In this document: positions 6,616 through 15,782 of the stretch, in pieces
Numbering within the stretch: position 1 is the stretch's first letter
How the letters are laid out: each line of letters begins with the position of its first letter
Virus record (IMG/VR): IMGVR_UViG_3300048548_000283
Location: 1-35,705 of that record
DNA: 35,705 bases
Source: a virus
Strand: one strand, 5' to 3'
The notes under the pieces: generated by a model
Database searches by the model: none
What the model was told of the DNA's origin: nothing
What the model saw: only the letters and a program-made list of their open reading frames with translations
Program-made: the position numbers and the translations under genes

Positions 6616-6829
6616 TGGTATACCAGCCCACAAGCAATACCATTATACCATACCTAAAGGTATATGGTATAAATGGTATAGTAAGCCTTGTCCGATACCA
6701 TTTGCTATACCAAGCAGTACCAAACTGTACCATTTGTAATATTTTATGTAATGTTTTCAGTATCATATGCTTTGCCGTTTTTGGTACACCTCTGGTATAC
6801 CCCTCATATTTTGTGCTTGGATCGTACCA
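6616..6829. repeat. Cluster of 13 TACCA/TGGTA half-sites, possible origin or operator array
   Basis: In 214 bases I count 13 exact copies of TACCA or its complement TGGTA: TGGTA starts at 6616, 6665, 6674, 6782 and 6793; TACCA starts at 6621, 6638, 6646, 6696, 6708, 6718, 6728 and 6825. Most are extended to TATACCA/TGGTATA, and 6616-6625 is a perfect palindrome TGGTATACCA. About 0.4 copies would be expected by chance. The stretch is AT-rich relative to its flanks, mostly gene-free (6600-6803), and lies just downstream of the primase-helicase gene, which its last copy enters. An origin of replication or a multi-site operator is the best guess. Confidence 0.75.
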
Positions 6830-8747
6830 ACCAGAAAAACCCCTCATTTTTGGCTATTTCACCCTTGTCGGTGAGCCCCTCTATCGCCCGTTGCCAGGCC
6901 TGGCTTTTGTTAACTGCGGCGACCTTCCCGTAGAAGTGTTTGCGTATGTCTTCCTCTTCTATTGCCCACCTGGTGCCGCCCTCCGGGAAGCCCGCGCCGC
7001 TCTTGTTTGGCCCTCCGACGAGCTCGCCCCAGAGCTGCGTAAAGCAATTCATCACCAGCTTTTCGTTTTTGGTGAGCTTTGTTTTTGCTTCTGACTGGCG
7101 CTCTTCATCCACCGGGATAATGTGGCAGCTCGTGACCGGGTCGCCGTCTTCATCTATGCCCAGCTCAACCGCGTTTAATTCAAATGCAAACTCGTGGCCG
7201 CTCTCCATGTCACGTTGCTTGGTTGCCTTGGCGAACCTTAGCCTGCTGCCGTCGTCCACGGTGAGCTCTATCTCTGTGTCTGTGGCGGCGCGTAAGCTAC
7301 TGTGACCCCTGGCAGTGTCTGTGGCCTTGCCTGAGTGATGCACCACCGCAATGGACGCCTTTGCGTGCCCCCTGAGTATGTCGCAATGCTGAATGACCGC
7401 AGTCATCGTTTCCGGCGCGTTTTCGTTACCCCCGGCGATGGCGCGGGACAGCGTGTCAACCACGATAAGCTCAATGCTGCCGTGCTTTTCTTTTACCAGG
7501 TCGATCAGGTCCAACAATTTTGGCATGTCTGCCGCCGGGTCGAGCAAGTTAACCGGGCAGGGGCGCACCGCCAATGGCACGTCTTCATCCTGGTAGTAGT
7601 CTTGTATGACCCTGGCGCGGTTGAGGTACCCGTGTCCCCCCTCCGCAGCCAGGTATAACGTGACGCCTTGCTTGACCTTGTGCCCGTGCCAATCTCGGCC
7701 TGCGGCGACGTGGTAAGCCATGTCCAGCATGAGAAAGCTCTTCCCGGTGTTCGACTGCCCGTAAAGCACAGACATTTGTTGGCGGCCCAGCCAGCCTTTT
7801 ATGAGATAGTTTGAGCGCAGCATGGGTTTGGCGTCGCCGATCCACACCAGCTCATCCAGGAGCGTCTCAGGCTGCGTGAGCTTGTTGAGCCCCGCCTTTA
7901 CCGCGTGCAGTCCTTGCTGGGCGTGTACGTCGTTCCAGTCTGTGTTTGGTTGCTCCGGCGCGGCGTAAGGCAGCCCGGTCTTTCTTGCTGCCTCCTGGCC
8001 GCCGTTGTCTGCGTCGTTATCTGCGGCGATGCGTAGGTCTATGCCGGGCCACTTTTGTTGCAGCGCGTCCACCACTGTTTGTAAGTTTGATTTGTCTAAG
8101 CCAAAGAACACCGGGTAGAGCTCGTCGAGCCCTTGGAAAACTGACACGCTCGTGGCCCAGCCTTCGCTCAACCAACAGGTGCCGGGATTGTCTGGTGTGA
8201 AAGTGCCCACCACGCCAAACACCCCGCCGTCCTTCTTTAGGCCTTGGTTGAACTTTTTGTTGCCGTTGGGTGAGATGCGTTGCTGTCCCACTTGCTGCTT
8301 GTCGGTGTTAAACAGCGGGACCACGACGTCTGCGCCCTCCAGGACCGCGCCTATGAGCTTTACGCCTTTTCGCTCATTGTACGGCGTGTAAGGGTCAAAC
8401 TGCGGCTCAGGCTTAGGCTCAGGCTCTGGCTTAGGCAACGGCACGACATTGGCGAAGTCTGCCGCCGTGACGCGATGCTGCATGACGCCCGGTTGGGTCG
8501 GCGCTATGGGCCAAACGCCGTCGTGCTCCATCTCAGCCACGATGGCGTTAAAGTCGTTGCACTGGCGGCAGGCGAACTTAACCAGGCCGTCCTTTTCGTT
8601 GATCCAAAACCTGGTGGACGGCCAGTCGTTGTGGCCGCAGCTCGGGCAAGCCCCGTGATGCTCGCCCGGCGGCCCCACACGCAATGAGTAGCGCGTGATG
8701 ATACGGTCTGACCACTCCGACCAGTATGGCTTGGGAAAGTCAGGCAT
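6804..8747 (-). CDS. Bifunctional primase-helicase (zinc finger, Toprim-like, RecA-like ATPase)
   Basis: 647 residues. A zinc ribbon with C34, C37, C60 and C63 (CPSCGH ... CRQC) is followed by a Pro/Glu-rich linker (104-116). A Toprim-type primase region has E195 (LSEGWA), the acidic run DNDAD (243-247) and TDWNDV. A RecA/RepA-like helicase domain has Walker A GQSNTGKS (330-337), Walker B ELIVVDTLS (D431) and VVHHSGK (468-474). The C-terminus is wHTH-like. It would prime and unwind at the phage fork. The start overlaps the ParB-like gene's end by 8 bases. No DNA polymerase is encoded nearby, so it presumably loads the host replicase. Confidence 0.9.
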   Translation of the reverse strand: MPDFPKPYWSEWSDRIITRYSLRVGPPGEHHGACPSCGHNDWPSTRFWINEKDGLVKFACRQCNDFNAIVAEMEHDGVWPIAPTQPGVMQHRVTAADFANVVPLPKPEPEPKPEPQFDPYTPYNERKGVKLIGAVLEGADVVVPLFNTDKQQVGQQRISPNGNKKFNQGLKKDGGVFGVVGTFTPDNPGTCWLSEGWATSVSVFQGLDELYPVFFGLDKSNLQTVVDALQQKWPGIDLRIAADNDADNGGQEAARKTGLPYAAPEQPNTDWNDVHAQQGLHAVKAGLNKLTQPETLLDELVWIGDAKPMLRSNYLIKGWLGRQQMSVLYGQSNTGKSFLMLDMAYHVAAGRDWHGHKVKQGVTLYLAAEGGHGYLNRARVIQDYYQDEDVPLAVRPCPVNLLDPAADMPKLLDLIDLVKEKHGSIELIVVDTLSRAIAGGNENAPETMTAVIQHCDILRGHAKASIAVVHHSGKATDTARGHSSLRAATDTEIELTVDDGSRLRFAKATKQRDMESGHEFAFELNAVELGIDEDGDPVTSCHIIPVDEERQSEAKTKLTKNEKLVMNCFTQLWGELVGGPNKSGAGFPEGGTRWAIEEEDIRKHFYGKVAAVNKSQAWQRAIEGLTDKGEIAKNEGFFWLVRSKHKI

Positions 8748-10293: not shown

Positions 10294-11127
10294 TTAGTCT
10301 CCTATTGTGTCTGCCAAATAACCTGGTAAGTCGTGCTCTGAGTATGAGCCCCAATTTGAGTTGTATTTTCTTGTGATCCGCGCCTCGGCTATCTCCAGCA
10401 ACGTCTGATCGACGACGCGTAAGGCATAGTCCATTGCGGATGGGCTCAGTGTGTGGAAGTGGGCCAAGTATGGCTTCTTCTTCTCCACGGCCAGGAAGCC
10501 CCAGGTTTTAACGTCCCAGCCGTGTAATCTCGCTATCATGCAGTACCAAGCCGCCTGCAAATGGTAGCCTCGTTTGTATATCTCCCGGCCAAAACCACGC
10601 TCGCTGGCGTCCTGGCACGTCTTGACGTCTCCCATTACTTTAAGTTTGGGTGAGTAAATGTCTGGTCTTATTGATAAAAGCAGCCCGGAGTGATGCTTAA
10701 CAAATATGCTTGCCTCGCAAATCCTATCCTCTTGCTTCAGCAGTTTGCCGCAGTGGCTGTCGTTCATCAGGCCACCGATTATTTCGCCGTCGTCGGTGGT
10801 AAAACCGTGAACCATGCCCCGCACCAATTCGTAATCCTTGCGGGGCAGTAAGACCTTACCTTCAATCCTACATAGCTCCGCGTGCTCCTTGTAAGCCTTG
10901 GTGGCGCGGGTTTTCTCATCGCTGCACACGACGTTACCTTTTCCCGGTTCGAGCGCCTCCGAGTGCGTTGCGGTGCCAATGGCGGCAACTATCTCACTGA
11001 TGTTTACCTCGCCGTACTGGGCGTGCATCGGGCTTTCCATTAGCCACTGCTTTAGGTATGACGAGGAAACCGCTGGTTTTGCGTGATAATCCTCGTTTGT
11101 CATGTCGTAATATATGCCTGGTTTCAT
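10294..11127 (-). CDS. PD-(D/E)XK exonuclease (RecE/YqaJ-type)
   Basis: 277 residues from the ATG at 11127, chosen because it overlaps the upstream stop as ATGA; ATGs at 11136 and 11157 are alternatives. The fold signature is complete: GTATH (H55), ICEASIF (E138), RPDIY (D156), GDVKT (D167, K169) and YHLQAAWY (Q191). It starts with GIYYDMTNEDYHAKPAVSSS, typical of the DUF3799/RecE-like group. It would degrade double-stranded DNA ends to feed recombination and concatemer formation. No separate annealing protein was recognised; the adjacent SSB may cover that step. Confidence 0.88.
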   Translation of the reverse strand: MKPGIYYDMTNEDYHAKPAVSSSYLKQWLMESPMHAQYGEVNISEIVAAIGTATHSEALEPGKGNVVCSDEKTRATKAYKEHAELCRIEGKVLLPRKDYELVRGMVHGFTTDDGEIIGGLMNDSHCGKLLKQEDRICEASIFVKHHSGLLLSIRPDIYSPKLKVMGDVKTCQDASERGFGREIYKRGYHLQAAWYCMIARLHGWDVKTWGFLAVEKKKPYLAHFHTLSPSAMDYALRVVDQTLLEIAEARITRKYNSNWGSYSEHDLPGYLADTIGD

Positions 11128-11945
11128 CCTGTGCATTCTCCATCGTCTGCCTGGCATAAAAATGCCTCGTTATCGAAAATCCAATCACCTTGACGCTCAA
11201 TAAAATTGCCAAGGTCTGCATAGCTACGTGACTTGTGAAATGTCCCGCCAGCCTTTGTTTCCATGTCTGCCCACCACTGCATTCTGTCTGGGTGCTCACG
11301 CCACATCATTGCCAGTGTTGCTTCTGATTTTAAAAAGCAGCCGTCACAATTACCTTTTGCAGTTACGCCATTTGGCCCATGCAAACGCAGATCAAAGGTT
11401 TGGCTGTTCCAAAACTGCATAACTTCTTTTTTGGTGACATTGGCGTGATACAGCGGATACCAAAACGTCCACCGATCTTCTTTTTTCTTTTTATTGACGC
11501 GTCTTGCTTCATCTGCACGGATGCCAATGCAAGAGTACCAGTGTTTCCAACCTTGCTTTACAAGGTATCGCTTGATTGTTCTGACTTTAAGTTCTGCGGT
11601 GCAAAATCGAGCAACGGCGTTGGGCAGGTAGGGGCGGTAAAGCATTTTCTCAAACGGCTCACCATTTCTTGCTGCACTATTATGAGAGACAACTTTATAT
11701 GCGACTTTATTATCAATGCGGTCATACTCTAACCAGGTAATCGGGACATCCCAATGCTCGCTGCAATCTTGCACAAAGTTAAGTGTCTGTGGCATTTCTC
11801 TGCCAGTGTTTGCAAAAACTACTTTGGTTGTATCTGACAAACCGTCGTTAGCTGCTAAGATTTCATGCAACATATAACCAGACGTTCTGCCACCTGAGAA
11901 GCTAATGAGCACGTTGCCATCTGGTAAAGAGTAGGGGCTTGTCAC
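11124..11945 (-). CDS. PAPS-reductase-like PP-loop protein with extra cysteines
   Basis: 273 residues. The PP-loop SFSGGRTSG (15-23) binds an adenine nucleotide, and FCTAELKVRTIKRYL (C115, K120) is the second signature of the phosphoadenosine-phosphosulfate reductase family. The C-terminal half has GNCDGCFLK (C200, C203), C264 and C271, which could hold an iron-sulfur cluster. Phage members are common but their substrate is unknown; options are sulfur or base modification of DNA or RNA, or true sulfate reduction. It overlaps both neighbours by 4 bases, inside the replication/recombination module, which favours a nucleic-acid role over cysteine synthesis (inference). Confidence 0.85.
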   Translation of the reverse strand: MTSPYSLPDGNVLISFSGGRTSGYMLHEILAANDGLSDTTKVVFANTGREMPQTLNFVQDCSEHWDVPITWLEYDRIDNKVAYKVVSHNSAARNGEPFEKMLYRPYLPNAVARFCTAELKVRTIKRYLVKQGWKHWYSCIGIRADEARRVNKKKKEDRWTFWYPLYHANVTKKEVMQFWNSQTFDLRLHGPNGVTAKGNCDGCFLKSEATLAMMWREHPDRMQWWADMETKAGGTFHKSRSYADLGNFIERQGDWIFDNEAFLCQADDGECTG

Positions 11946-12394
11946 TTCACTAGCCTCCCGTATGTCGCCATCAATAAAGCCTCGGCGCGGTGTTCATCTT
12001 TCTTGCGCTTGAGGTCGTCAGCCAGGGCAGGGAATTGCTGTATCGCTAATCGCCGGGCGCCATCCTTATCTGCCGGGACACGCAACGCCTTTTTCCAACT
12101 GGCCGGGGTGACGATCTGGTAGGGAATGCCAAGCAATGAGACGGCACTTAAAATCTGACCAAAACCCATCCCGATCTTAAATGCCGAGCTCACGCCTTGC
12201 TTTGGCCGGGCTCCCTGCTTCTCTATGACAAGGTAATCCACAGCCACACTGCTTAATATCTGCCTCAATTCGTGGGCGTCGAGGCCACCCTCAGTGAAGA
12301 CGGGGAGGTCGTGTACCTCAGCCCAATCCCCCTGGAGGAGCGCCACGCCGCCCGTTTTATATCCGGGATCAATGCCTGCGAATGTCTTGGTCAT
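11942..12394 (-). CDS. RuvC-like Holliday junction resolvase
   Basis: 150 residues. RNase H-fold landmarks are present: AGIDPGYKTGGVA (D9), DYLVIEKQ (E58), the mid-region GMGFGQILSAVSLLGIPYQI, and KKDEHRAEALLMA (D133, E138) as the C-terminal acidic pair. It would cut branched DNA before packaging or during recombination. Usual RuvC length is 160-175, so this is a compact phage version. The start overlaps the RHH regulator by 26 bases and the stop overlaps the PP-loop gene by 4. Confidence 0.85.
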   Translation of the reverse strand: MTKTFAGIDPGYKTGGVALLQGDWAEVHDLPVFTEGGLDAHELRQILSSVAVDYLVIEKQGARPKQGVSSAFKIGMGFGQILSAVSLLGIPYQIVTPASWKKALRVPADKDGARRLAIQQFPALADDLKRKKDEHRAEALLMATYGRLVK

Positions 12395-12533
12395 CTTCGT
12401 CCCTTACTGATTCGCCGAGGATCTCCTTGCATAGGCTCGCCAGTGACCGCTCTTCGGCCTTGGCCTTGGCTACAAGCTTAGTTTTGATCTCTTCGGTGAT
12501 GCGTACAAATAACGCAACTCGTTGTTTATCCAT
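12369..12533 (-). CDS. Arc/CopG-like ribbon-helix-helix regulator
   Basis: 54 residues, found by reading the minus strand: MDKQRVALFVRITEEIKTKL, then VAKAKAEERSLASLCKEILG, then an acidic tail. RVALFVRI is the N-terminal beta-ribbon that contacts DNA. EEIKTKLVAKAKAEER and SLASLCKEILGE are the two helices. It is the first gene of the leftward unit, beside the divergent control region, and overlaps the RuvC-like gene by 26 bases. RHH dimers bind short, regularly spaced direct repeats, so it is a prime candidate to bind the 11-bp AGACAG arrays. The ribosome site is weak. Confidence 0.7.
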   Translation of the reverse strand: MDKQRVALFVRITEEIKTKLVAKAKAEERSLASLCKEILGESVRDEDDQDIRRH

Positions 12534-12569: not shown

Positions 12570-12587
12570 AACTTCTGGTACTTGTAT
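12570..12587. repeat. Dispersed motif copy (AACTTCTGGTACTTGTAT)
   Basis: This is a divergent left half and an identical right half of the motif AGTATCTGGTACTTGTAT found at 14961, 14982, 19873, 21816, 21846 and 33873. Here it lies in the divergent promoter region, 37 bases before the RHH gene start. See the finding on the dispersed motif. Confidence 0.6.
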
Positions 12588-12620
12588 ATAAGCTAGCTAA
12601 TAGCTATCTTAATATCAATT

Positions 12621-12653
12621 AGACAGTTTACAGACAGTTTTTAGACAGGAGAG
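12621..12653 (+). repeat. Three AGACAG direct repeats at 11-bp spacing
   Basis: Units start at 12621 (agacagtttac), 12632 (agacagttttt) and 12643 (agacaggagag), exactly 11 bases apart, so about one helical turn each. The last unit runs into the ribosome site of the gene at 12658. The same repeat at the same period recurs at 14534-14577. Likely operator sites for an oligomerising regulator. Confidence 0.8.
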
Positions 12654-12657
12654 AACG

Positions 12658-12825
12658 ATGAAACATATTATAGACTACGACCACATGTGCAGGGTTTGTC
12701 AGGGAAAGCAACGTATATACAGATGGGAATACTCGCCAACCACCGGGAAAGAGATTTTAACTGGTGAGGACTGCAACGCGTGCGTCGGCGGGTACCGCGC
12801 CATTTTCATAGGCAAGAGACAATGA
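12658..12825 (+). CDS. Small two-CxxC zinc-ribbon-like protein
   Basis: 55 residues: MKHIIDYDHMCRVCQGKQRI, then YRWEYSPTTGKEILTGEDCN, then ACVGGYRAIFIGKRQ. C11-x2-C14 and C39-x2-C42 form a likely single zinc-binding knuckle. It is the first gene of the rightward unit, with aggagag about 5 bases before the ATG inside the third AGACAG unit, so a protein bound to that array could also limit translation or transcription. The stop overlaps the next start (ATGA). Probably an early regulator or host-takeover protein; no named family recognised. Confidence 0.7.
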   Translation: MKHIIDYDHMCRVCQGKQRIYRWEYSPTTGKEILTGEDCNACVGGYRAIFIGKRQ

Positions 12826-13007
12826 ACCAGGCGAAATCTAGAAAAGTTGTAGACATGAGCTGTAATAAAATTATGTTTACTGGCACTTGGGCTCAGTGCG
12901 TGAACTACTGCGTCCACAATAAGTTAGGCACGTATCACGAGCACGGCTGGTTGGGGCACGTCCTCAACATGGCGGAGCGATACGTGATCCAGGAGGTAAC
13001 ACAATGA
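12822..13007 (+). CDS. Hypothetical small protein
   Basis: 61 residues from the ATG at 12822, chosen because it overlaps the previous stop (ATGA); an ATG at 12780 in the same frame would overlap the CxxC gene by 46 bases. It reads MNQAKSRKVVDMSCNKIMFT and includes WAQCVNYCVHNKLGTYHEHG, with three Cys and several His, so metal binding is possible. It is coupled on both sides by 4-base overlaps. Function unknown. Confidence 0.6.
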   Translation: MNQAKSRKVVDMSCNKIMFTGTWAQCVNYCVHNKLGTYHEHGWLGHVLNMAERYVIQEVTQ

Positions 13008-13732
13008 AAGTCGGGGGGTTTATTTTTGGCGCGTCTGCGGAACATCAGAAGCATCAACGCCAACGCATCAAAGCAACGCTAGACACGAGCTCGGAGGTCA
13101 AATGGTTTACGGAAGAGCAGGGGCGTCAGAAGCGTGACCCGGACGACCGCACGGAGCTGCAACGCGCCGCCAGGTTTTGTCGGACGAACGACGCGACCTT
13201 CACCGTCAGCAGCCTCAAGGGCGCCTTTAAGTATAAGTGGCAGGGTCTCACCTGGTTGAAGCATCAGGTCGAGATGTATGACATGCGCGTGCTTGTGGCC
13301 GACGATCCGACAATATCAAAGGGGTCGCTGCATGTGTTATCTGCCGCCGCAGACATACAACGCGCCAGGATTGCAGAGAAAAGCAAGGCGGCCCTGGATG
13401 AAATAAAACGTAAACTGGCTGAGGAGGGGTCTCACGTCAGTAGGAAGGGCAAGAAGATCGAACGCCTGGGTATGCACAAGAAAACCAGTGAGGCTGGTAA
13501 GATTGGCAACAAAGCCCAGCGAGAGTTGGCCGCAGAACGTGACGCCGAGGTGTGGCCGATTATTGAACGATGCTTGGCGCAGGGCATGGGGTACACCGCT
13601 ATCTCACGCCATTTAAACTTAACAGGAGTAGCCACCCCCGCCGTCAGGCGTCGAGAAGCGAGAGACACGATGGGGCTGTGGTACGCCTCAACCGTGCAAA
13701 ATATTGTCTTGAGACAAAGGAGGAAAAAATGA
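13004..13732 (+). CDS. Serine-recombinase (resolvase)-like protein with altered active site
   Basis: 242 residues. The N-terminal domain aligns by eye with resolvases: IFGASAEHQ (8-15) where YxRVSxxxQ is expected, DRTELQRAARFCRTNDATFT, then VADDPTISKGSLHVLSAAAD and QRARIAEKSKAALDEIK, the dimerisation helix. The C-terminus (YTAISRHLNLTGVATPAVRR, then GLWYASTVQNIVLRQ) matches the recombinase-type HTH. Ser (S11), Gln and the DRxELQ Arg remain, but the Arg before Ser is Gly (G9), and the LDRLxR motif reads LKGAFK. Catalysis is therefore doubtful; a DNA-binding or regulatory role is likely. It overlaps the next gene by 4 bases and the upstream gene by 4. Confidence 0.7.
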   Translation: MKVGGFIFGASAEHQKHQRQRIKATLDTSSEVKWFTEEQGRQKRDPDDRTELQRAARFCRTNDATFTVSSLKGAFKYKWQGLTWLKHQVEMYDMRVLVADDPTISKGSLHVLSAAADIQRARIAEKSKAALDEIKRKLAEEGSHVSRKGKKIERLGMHKKTSEAGKIGNKAQRELAAERDAEVWPIIERCLAQGMGYTAISRHLNLTGVATPAVRRREARDTMGLWYASTVQNIVLRQRRKK

Positions 13733-13920
13733 CAAATAACCTTAAACACATGTGTAATGGAGAATACACTTTTATATATCTGGCGAACTCGACTAACAAG
13801 CTTACACAGATTTCCAAACGTCGAGCTCTTGGCAATTACACGTGTGGATGGAATGCAAAAGGTCAGCCATTCGCTCCAATCGCACCTCCAACTTACGGAG
13901 GGTCAAATGTCCAAGCATGA
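13729..13920 (+). CDS. Hypothetical small protein
   Basis: 63 residues, starting MTNNLKHMCNGEYTFIYLAN and ending PPTYGGSNVQA. A strong AGGAGG lies 5 bases before the ATG at 13729, and the ATG overlaps the resolvase-like stop (ATGA). The 3' end overlaps the next gene by 14 bases. No domain recognised; it has two Cys and a Pro/Gly-rich tail. Confidence 0.6.
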   Translation: MTNNLKHMCNGEYTFIYLANSTNKLTQISKRRALGNYTCGWNAKGQPFAPIAPPTYGGSNVQA

Positions 13921-14467
13921 TGCAAAAATTGACTTTATAGAGGCGCAAGAAACGGAGCTGGCTGATGAACATAAAATACCACACTACCCATCAGACGGTA
14001 ACGATCTGCGCGACTTTAGAGAGAGCCTCATCCAACGCTTTGTCCAAACGCAAATTAAACTTGAGCACCAGTTATATTTAGACAAGAAAAAATGGTCTGA
14101 GAATGATGAAATTTCACGCTGGACTTTTGCAACGCATAATCGTCAAATGGTTTTTTGGATGTTTGCAATTGAGGACATTGGCGAGGGGTTTTCAGTCTCA
14201 AGGGCGGCAGATTACCTTCAACGCGATAGAGCAAGTGTATCAAAAGATTTGTCAGAGTTACACGCTTTGAAGTATATTATACGCAATACAAAAGAGGGCT
14301 GTCAGCGGTATTACTTGCCGTCGCAACGGCTCTTAAACAATGCCGCGTGGTACTCAAACTACTATGTAGACTTGACTTTAAGCCTGACAGAAGACAAAAA
14401 TCGTGGCGCATTTTTTGAGTATAGATCAGCAGAACGCGACTACTTTAAAGCGCAAGAAAAAGCGTGA
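13907..14467 (+). CDS. Winged-helix transcription regulator or replication initiator-like protein
   Basis: 186 residues from the ATG at 13907, which has GGAGGG 5 bases upstream (13897-13902); an in-frame ATG at 13757 is less likely because it would overlap the previous gene almost entirely. After a charged helical N-terminus, residues about 92-140 form a MarR-like winged helix: GFSVSRAADYLQRDRASVSK, then DLSELHALKYIIRNTKEGCQ and RYYL. It is the last gene before the second AGACAG array, so it is a candidate to bind either array. No enzyme motif. Confidence 0.7.
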   Translation: MSKHDAKIDFIEAQETELADEHKIPHYPSDGNDLRDFRESLIQRFVQTQIKLEHQLYLDKKKWSENDEISRWTFATHNRQMVFWMFAIEDIGEGFSVSRAADYLQRDRASVSKDLSELHALKYIIRNTKEGCQRYYLPSQRLLNNAAWYSNYYVDLTLSLTEDKNRGAFFEYRSAERDYFKAQEKA

Positions 14468-14501
14468 CACTGTGCAACAAAAAATATGTGTACACGTCAC
14501 A

Positions 14502-14531
14502 TTGACGCAAAGAATCAAATATTGTTAGGAT
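14502..14531 (+). promoter_or_regulatory. Probable sigma70-type promoter
   Basis: TTGACG (14502-14507) and TAGGAT (14526-14531) are separated by 18 bases in the gene-free gap 14468-14590. The first AGACAG unit begins at 14534, about where transcription would start, so a protein bound to the array would block it. It would drive the gene group beginning at 14591. Confidence 0.5.
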
Positions 14532-14533
14532 TA

Positions 14534-14577
14534 AGACAGTTTGCAGACAGTCGTTAGACAGTTTGCAGACAAGTCTT
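14534..14577 (+). repeat. Four AGACAG direct repeats at 11-bp spacing
   Basis: Units start at 14534 (agacagtttgc), 14545 (agacagtcgtt), 14556 (agacagtttgc) and 14567 (agacaagtctt, one mismatch in the hexamer), each exactly 11 bases apart. Units one and three are identical, so the array is also a 22-bp tandem pair. It matches the array at 12621-12653 and lies between a promoter-like sequence and the gene at 14591. Confidence 0.85.
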
Positions 14578-14590
14578 AGATGAGGAAGGC

Positions 14591-14959
14591 ATGAGACGTA
14601 ACAAGCTAAAGATAAATCCTACGGTTCTCAAGATGAGCATGGGGCTGATGAAATTTCGCAGGCGGGTCGAGATACCGTGTTGGCACGTAGACCACCTGAG
14701 AAAAATCGTTCGCATCTTTAGGGAGTACGCCGACCGCCTGGAGGCTATCGCTGACGCGAATAAGCTTCGACCCTCAGACAAGACGTCCGCGTCACAGCAA
14801 GTCATCTGCCAGATGAACCTGGATATGCAGCTAATGACGCCAAAAGATCCTCGGGAACGGGGTGAAGAAAGGGGCGGGTACAACCACGGCTTCGGCCGGG
14901 GATACCTAAACACCAACGGCTTTGACGAGCTGCTTGCCCGTGACGACATGGACGACTAA
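14591..14959 (+). CDS. Hypothetical basic protein
   Basis: 122 residues, starting MRRNKLKINPTVLKMSMGLM, with a helical basic first half (HVDHLRKIVRIFREYADRLE) and a Gly/Arg-rich tail (GEERGGYNHGFGRGYLNTNG). GAGGAAGG precedes the ATG by 2-3 bases. First gene after the second AGACAG array, so probably under its control. No family recognised. It is separated from the next gene by a pair of palindromic motifs. Confidence 0.6.
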   Translation: MRRNKLKINPTVLKMSMGLMKFRRRVEIPCWHVDHLRKIVRIFREYADRLEAIADANKLRPSDKTSASQQVICQMNLDMQLMTPKDPRERGEERGGYNHGFGRGYLNTNGFDELLARDDMDD

Positions 14960-14960
14960 C

Positions 14961-14994
14961 AGTATCTGGTACTAGAGCCAAAGTATCTGGTACG
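14961..14994. repeat. Pair of palindromic motifs AGTATCTGGTACT, 21 bp apart
   Basis: AGTATCTGGTACT at 14961-14973 and AGTATCTGGTACG at 14982-14994 start 21 bases apart, about two helical turns, in the gap before the gene at 15017. The motif is a 13-bp near-perfect palindrome. Five more copies occur elsewhere in the window. Likely a two-site operator or RNA hairpin pair in the leader of the gene at 15017. Confidence 0.75.
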
Positions 14995-15016: not shown

Positions 15017-15271
15017 ATGTTGAGCGCAGTAGAACAATTAGTAAAAAAGTATCAGGGCGTTAGGCGAGAGACCTCAACCGAGACCCGTAAATCTAATTCG
15101 CATAATATATATTATCTGTATATGTTCAGAAAGGGTGTTTTAGCTACCCAAACAGACCAGACTAAACAGAATAGCAGATTAATCAGAGAGCTAGCTGGGG
15201 ATATAATCGGCTGCGTCTCTCTTATGGTCTTGTTTTTCGTAACACTTTTTATTGCGGGGGTCTACCAATGA
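15017..15271 (+). CDS. Small single-pass membrane protein
   Basis: 84 residues. The N-terminal part is hydrophilic (MLSAVEQLVKKYQGVRRETS), and residues about 62-82 (IIGCVSLMVLFFVTLFIAGV) form one clear transmembrane helix near the C-terminus, so most of the protein would face the cytoplasm. AAGGAAAAC lies about 9 bases before the ATG. The stop overlaps the next start by 4 bases. In an early block such a protein might act in superinfection exclusion or host membrane alteration, which is inference only. Confidence 0.65.
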   Translation: MLSAVEQLVKKYQGVRRETSTETRKSNSHNIYYLYMFRKGVLATQTDQTKQNSRLIRELAGDIIGCVSLMVLFFVTLFIAGVYQ

Positions 15272-15537
15272 TTATCCGCGACGTAAAATTTAAGTCTAAC
15301 GCAAAGAACGAAAGACTCATACAAGACTTTGAGGAAAACCTAGTTGACCTGGCAGATCAGCTCGCTGTTTGTCACGCTGAGATAAGAAAGTGGAAAGCTT
15401 TTGAGCGTGCCGCCGCCCAGGGTTTATTTGAGGGTATGCGGTTATGTGAGATCGCGCAGCTTACCACTGACGACCATGTTTTTACTCTTAGCCATGACAC
15501 GGTTGAGGTGGAGTATGACAAGGGGGTGGTGCATTGA
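15268..15537 (+). CDS. Hypothetical small protein, partly coiled coil
   Basis: 89 residues, starting MIIRDVKFKSNAKNERLIQD. Residues about 18-50 (FEENLVDLADQLAVCHAEIR, then KWKAFERAAAQ) are strongly helical with heptad-like spacing; the C-terminal part looks beta-rich. It overlaps its neighbours by 4 bases at each end. Function unknown. Confidence 0.6.
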   Translation: MIIRDVKFKSNAKNERLIQDFEENLVDLADQLAVCHAEIRKWKAFERAAAQGLFEGMRLCEIAQLTTDDHVFTLSHDTVEVEYDKGVVH

Positions 15538-15782
15538 CCAAGTATCCAATGAGCCCCCCGCAAAAAGAAATCTACGATTTTATTGTGGAGTTCTACAACG
15601 AATATCCTGACCGTTACCCATCACTGGCGGCCATGTGTACTGGCATGGTTGGCGACCGTCGCATCTGTAAAAAGAGATCCGGCAGGGAGGGACCGCGTCA
15701 CCTGGTAAAACAGTTAATCAATAAAGGTTGGTTGGAAGAGAAGTTTTACCGCAACGTGGCTTATTGGGTTCCGACAGATTGA
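15534..15782 (+). CDS. LexA-like winged-helix small protein (TTG start)
   Basis: 82 residues, starting at a TTG that overlaps the previous stop (TTGA); MTKYPMSPPQKEIYDFIVEF then YNEYPDRYPSLAAMC resembles the N-terminal DNA-binding domain of LexA-type repressors (TPxQxxILxFI...GxxPSLxxIA). The C-terminal part (GPRHLVKQLINKGWLEEKFY) would be the end of the HTH and the wing. There is no protease domain. An ATG six codons in is an alternative start but loses the overlap. Confidence 0.6.
   Translation: MTKYPMSPPQKEIYDFIVEFYNEYPDRYPSLAAMCTGMVGDRRICKKRSGREGPRHLVKQLINKGWLEEKFYRNVAYWVPTD

Follow-up and report, generated by a model that had tools for sequence, protein, structure and literature searches.

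Phased repeat arrays at two early promoters of an uncultivated phage are probable operators of a phage-encoded LexA-like protein

We analysed a viral DNA of 35,705 bases, a whole IMG/VR record that is called the window here, in which two predicted early promoters are followed by arrays of short direct repeats. The arrays are probably LexA-type operators, to which a phage-encoded relative of LexA consisting of the DNA-binding domain only (encoded at 15534–15782) would bind, repressing both promoters. Observed in the sequences themselves are the arrays, their conservation in related phages, the joint change of the two arrays, the LexA-like character of the protein family, the shift of its contact residues with the motif, and the replacement of protein and arrays together. 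The portal is podovirus-like, and its closest relatives among named phages are those of Octadecabacter, Sinorhizobium, Sulfitobacter, and Pelagibacter, so the host is likely to be an alphaproteobacterium. No nucleotide match to the window was found among named phages, and no match to the gene g14591 was found among them. The features of the region are as follows.

12369–12533, − strand: RHH (Arc-like) gene, the first gene of the divergent leftward operon, with weak PHROG Arc-like matches
12582–12610, + strand: predicted promoter 1, TTGTAT (12582–12587), 17 bp, TATCTT (12605–12610); sequence and spacing are kept in relatives
12592–12608, no strand assigned: imperfect palindrome GCTAGC-N5-GCTATC in the −35/−10 spacer of promoter 1; candidate RHH operator
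12621–12648, + strand: array 1, AGAC-N7-AGAC-N7-AGAC, putative LexA-type half-sites about 11 bp after the −10; the period is kept in relatives
12658–12825, + strand: first gene after array 1, 55 aa with CxxC motifs; relatives insert accessory genes between the two
13004–13732, + strand: catalytically degenerate serine-recombinase-like (resolvase-like) protein, conserved in the locus; rival binder
13907–14467, + strand: winged-helix protein (wHTH) in a variable slot before array 2; the arrays do not require it
14502–14531, + strand: predicted promoter 2, TTGACG (14502–14507), 18 bp, extended −10 TGTTAGGAT (14523–14531)
14534–14572, + strand: array 2, four AGAC half-sites, the first over the predicted start site
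14591–14959, + strand: g14591, the first gene of operon 2, 122 aa, a predicted helical hairpin without HTH; conserved directly after array 2
15534–15782, + strand: LexA-DNA-binding-domain-like winged-helix protein, 82 aa, encoded in operon 2; proposed binder of both arrays

The original prediction described two arrays of AGACAG units spaced exactly 11 bp apart. Inspection of the window located them at 12621, 12632, and 12643 (array 1) and at 14534, 14545, and 14556 (array 2), while the fourth unit of array 2, at 14567, is AGACAA and departs from the described repeat by one mismatch. When the unit is read as the tetramer AGAC, all seven units are exact, three in array 1 and four in array 2. As had been described, the arrays lie directly upstream of + strand genes, which start at 12658 and 14591, and the TTGACG-18-TAGGAT element precedes array 2 (14502–14507 and 14526–14531); its TAGGAT is preceded by TG, forming an extended −10 that reads TGnTANNNT in relatives. 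The pattern AGAC-N7-AGAC occurs seven times in the window, five of these within the arrays, against an expectation of 0.64 ± 0.81, and none of 100 shuffles reached seven. All six exact + strand copies of AGACAG in the 35.7-kb record fall inside the two arrays, and the triple AGACAG-N5 pattern is found twice in the record and its reversed control not at all. The arrays span roughly −4 to +35 of the two predicted early promoters, and this location at predicted transcription starts gives no support to reading them as iterons. A separate short element, TCTGGTAC, is located at 12574–12581, just 5′ of the promoter 1 −35, and recurs at 14965–14972 and 14986–14993, 21 bp apart, before the gene at 15017.

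A database scan for the triple repeat returned 85 stretches, compared with 64 for the reversed pattern, so bare-pattern counts are uninformative alone, and the informative evidence is conservation behind conserved promoters. The same scan also yielded a coherent group in which array 1 stands behind CTTGTAT-17-TATCTT and is directly followed by a ribosome-binding site and then by a different gene in each phage. About 100 related contigs were gathered by searches with the RuvC-like neighbour, g14591, the RHH gene, and the resolvase-like gene. Array 2 precedes the g14591 homologue, behind an extended −10, in 18 of 19 close relatives. When 30 non-redundant leaders were aligned by the promoter alone, a motif-agnostic measure of self-similarity peaked at lag 11 (z = 14.6) and lag 22 (z = 6.8). 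The position directly after array 1 acts as a cargo slot in relatives (L026, L030, L060, L062, L066, L072, L083, L087, and L107–L111), where differing accessory genes precede the g12658-g12822-resolvase-like block; at 12650–12660 of the window this slot carries no insertion.

Comparison of the homologous sites revealed that the 11-bp period is kept and that the AGACAG sequence itself is not, since it differs by clade. The window clade has AGAC units and another clade has A(G/C/T)AC; GAAC is present in G001/G005/G006, L138/L144, L269, L271, and L281, AAAC/ATAC in L258, GTAC in both L277 and L299, and GGT(A/C) throughout the L284–L294 group. Read in register, most clades (AGAC, GAAC, AAAC, GTAC) conform to NNAC-N7-NNAC-N7-NNAC. 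In G005/G006 both arrays are GAAC-type, so that AGAC changed to GAAC jointly within one genome, which suggests that one factor reads both arrays. The conservation of both arrays at homologous sites and their joint change speak for the phage-specific operator common to two early promoters that had been proposed. Arrays of three to four AGACAG units at 11 bp were also observed in unrelated prophage-like contigs (L004, L031, L039, L048, L051, L054, L078, and L084), where they precede a terminase-small-subunit-like gene and are possibly a packaging or terminase site; a search of the L004, L054, and L031 group for a LexA-like protein found none.

The proposed binder, encoded at 15534–15782, was absent from the candidates listed in the original prediction (the RHH protein, the resolvase-like protein, and the wHTH). 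In a search of the PDB with the profile of its family, the best nine matches were all LexA structures (top E value 7e-10), and Pfam LexA_DNA_bind was matched above the cut-off by six distant members; the window's own protein had no match in Pfam, its relationship to LexA being drawn from the family. The protein lacks the peptidase (self-cleavage) domain, and its 82 aa correspond to the length of the DNA-binding domain only. A member of the family is present in every examined array contig that reaches that far. Comparison of the protein from L105 (AGAC arrays) with that from G005 (GAAC arrays) revealed 14 differences in 77 residues, which include all five LexA-contact positions (P = 1e-4), with GREGARK in the L105-type recognition helix and SRTSAYG in the G005-type; the RHH protein does not differ between the two. 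These positions of the LexA-like protein correspond to Ser39, Asn41, Ala42, Glu44, and Glu45 of E. coli LexA, which are contact residues in the LexA-DNA structure. In L133, L136, L137, and L024, a differing helix (SRQSIYPHV) accompanies nearly the same motif (AGAC) nonetheless. Rank correlations between protein and motif over 27 phages gave rho values of 0.42 for the recognition helix and 0.67 for both the rest of the protein and g14591; they do not discriminate between binders, and the helix is not singled out because all genes share ancestry.

Analysis of G024 indicated that protein and arrays were replaced together, in one clade and on one long contig: both arrays are missing, and an unrelated tandem-HTH protein occupies the slot of the 15534 gene, while the RHH gene, the resolvase-like gene, a wHTH, g14591, and g15268 are retained. 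By these comparisons, the 15534 protein appears to fit as the binder better than the RHH protein, the resolvase-like protein, or the wHTH. g14591 was rejected as a binder, being a helical hairpin without HTH in its predicted model and being retained in the array-less G024. The candidacy of the wHTH, one of the binders first put forward, was not borne out: G005/G006 retain both arrays but have no wHTH in the interval from the resolvase-like gene to array 2, and a wHTH persists in G024. In a relative without arrays, L270, a protein with two helix-turn-helix-like repeats (6706–7185) stands in the place of the LexA-like gene.

The geometry of the arrays matches that of a known DNA operator. Alphaproteobacterial LexA binds the direct repeat GTTC-N7-GTTC (PMC3323433; for Caulobacter, PMC12907096), which on the other strand reads GAAC-N7-GAAC with an 11-bp period. 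A query sequence for this LexA matched 80 genome sequences at 89–94% identity; an N7 direct repeat was found upstream of 77 of 79 alphaproteobacterial lexA genes (helix SKSGIHRLI), compared with 2 of 158 for the N6/N8 controls. The window arrays resemble this box in their direct tetramer half-sites, 7-bp spacers, 11-bp period, and promoter location. They differ from it in the half-site, which is AGAC and not GTTC/GAAC (exact GAAC occurs in the relatives G001, G005, L138, L269, L271, and L281), and in having three or four half-sites at early-promoter start sites where the LexA box has two; the proposed cognate protein is moreover phage-encoded and devoid of a self-cleavage domain. In L281, whose units are GAAC/AAAC/GAAC, the recognition helix SRSTIHNHI is similar to SKSGIHRLI of the alphaproteobacterial protein. 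Taken together with the box geometry, this likeness suggests that the array is best read as a lengthened LexA-type operator. The nearest precedent for the 15534 protein, and the only relative that has been studied, is gp6 of GIL01, a truncated phage LexA homologue limited to the DNA-binding domain, which activates a late promoter of this Gram-positive tectivirus from a site over the −35 (PMC6182141). GIL01 gp6 and the 15534 family share the fold of the LexA DNA-binding domain and the absence of a peptidase domain, whereas the arrays, unlike the gp6 site, follow the −10 at two early promoters and belong to podovirus-like phages.

On the proposed mechanism, monomers of the 15534 protein would occupy the arrays one per half-site, side by side along one face of the helix, and their physical binding may be cooperative; lacking the dimerisation and cleavage domain of LexA, the protein would presumably need more half-sites to bind tightly. 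Positioned over the start site and leader, it would block initiation or clearance at both predicted promoters, acting in repression rather than activation. The protein would be made from operon 2 and, as it accumulates, may shut off its own synthesis together with the early genes; with the gene behind array 2, such autoregulation would amount to negative feedback on both early operons. The case for this protein, built by sequence comparison, rests on the L105/G005 comparison, the replacement in G024, and the match in geometry to LexA boxes.

Among the alternatives, the resolvase-like protein, also among the binders named in the original prediction, was favoured at first. It would be a serine recombinase turned repressor, binding the arrays via its C-terminal helix-turn-helix and regulating its own operon through array 1. 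It occurs in every array phage with a long enough contig, its AlphaFold model matches serine recombinases, and its catalytic arginines, retained in other groups, are lost in the window group, making a regulatory role plausible; in GAAC-class members the stretch just before the recognition helix is altered. Its Pfam Resolvase/Recombinase matches are below the cut-off, and its profile found no match among PDB sequences. Comparison of L271 with L277 and of L281 with the L280/L282 group revealed that the helix-turn-helix is nearly constant within these pairs despite their differing motifs, its similarity correlates poorly with the motif (rho 0.21), and the protein persists in G024 without arrays. 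These results weakened the candidate, and we now regard it as unlikely. Across the relatives, and always at the same early locus, this gene shows a gradation: distant phages encode serine recombinases that are catalytically intact (RVST...DRFSR), and the window group has the degenerate form (compared in the window, L279, L281, L299, L302, and L308).

It is very unlikely that host LexA is the main ligand, an arrangement that would place the phage early promoters under SOS control. The GAAC-N7-GAAC arrays of several relatives do equal the alphaproteobacterial SOS box, and the portal relatives infect alphaproteobacteria, but the half-site in the window is AGAC and not the GAAC of the host box, and the motifs of the clades (AGAC, GTAC, GGTA) drift from that box and shift together with a phage gene.

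Binding of the arrays by the RHH protein, which had likewise been predicted, is highly improbable. RHH dimers bind phased short repeats, and the operators of Arc, MetJ, and ParR resemble the arrays in their short phased repeats, cooperative binding, and small phage repressors. The RHH gene always adjoins array 1 and is conserved beside it in about 45 loci. Identical RHH proteins are nevertheless found beside the AGAC arrays of L194 and the GAAC arrays of L195–L197; between these loci the promoter palindrome is unchanged, and the sequences diverge from the array onwards. Unlike in the Arc/MetJ/ParR systems, the RHH gene here does not track the array motif, and it is retained in the array-less G024. 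An apparent covariation of RHH residue 5 (Arg) with G2 of the unit, promising on 40 loci, was refuted by L192/L195–L197. A better candidate for the RHH site is the promoter 1 palindrome, which in relatives reads GATAGC-N5-GCTATC and is conserved together with the RHH gene; this element, not the array, is probably what the protein binds. The leftward operon also contains a phosphoadenosine phosphosulfate reductase-like gene (11124–11945).

It is scarcely credible that the repeats work in the RNA leader as the target of a translational or RNA-binding regulator close to the ribosome-binding site: the arrays do overlap the Shine-Dalgarno sequence, and in relatives they also reach the start codon, but unit 1 of array 2 is no further downstream than the predicted start site and the array geometry equals that of the alphaproteobacterial LexA box, a DNA operator. 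In relatives, unit 1 of array 2 lies over the predicted start, and in several of them a later unit falls within the coding sequence. The array keeps a fixed place relative to the promoter but stands at varying distances from the start codon, and this speaks for an operator in DNA more than for an element in RNA.

If the arrays are read as operators of the 15534 protein, a repeat of uncultivated marine phages that had lacked an explanation becomes part of a tractable regulator–operator pair. This reading also provides natural variants in specificity that differ at known contact positions of LexA, with which the change of half-site recognition by winged-helix proteins could be tested. A more tentative idea, which we hold possible but doubtful, is that the phages possess a specificity system that diversifies rapidly, made up of a non-cleavable LexA mimic of their own and operators with several half-sites, in which protein and operators are changed or swapped together and half-sites become clade-specific. 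If this were true, early genes would escape host LexA through the departure from the host GAAC box, which may also divide co-infecting phages into incompatibility (immunity-like) groups. The finding bears on whether lytic phages acquired the SOS repressor of their hosts and adapted it to the timing of early gene expression.
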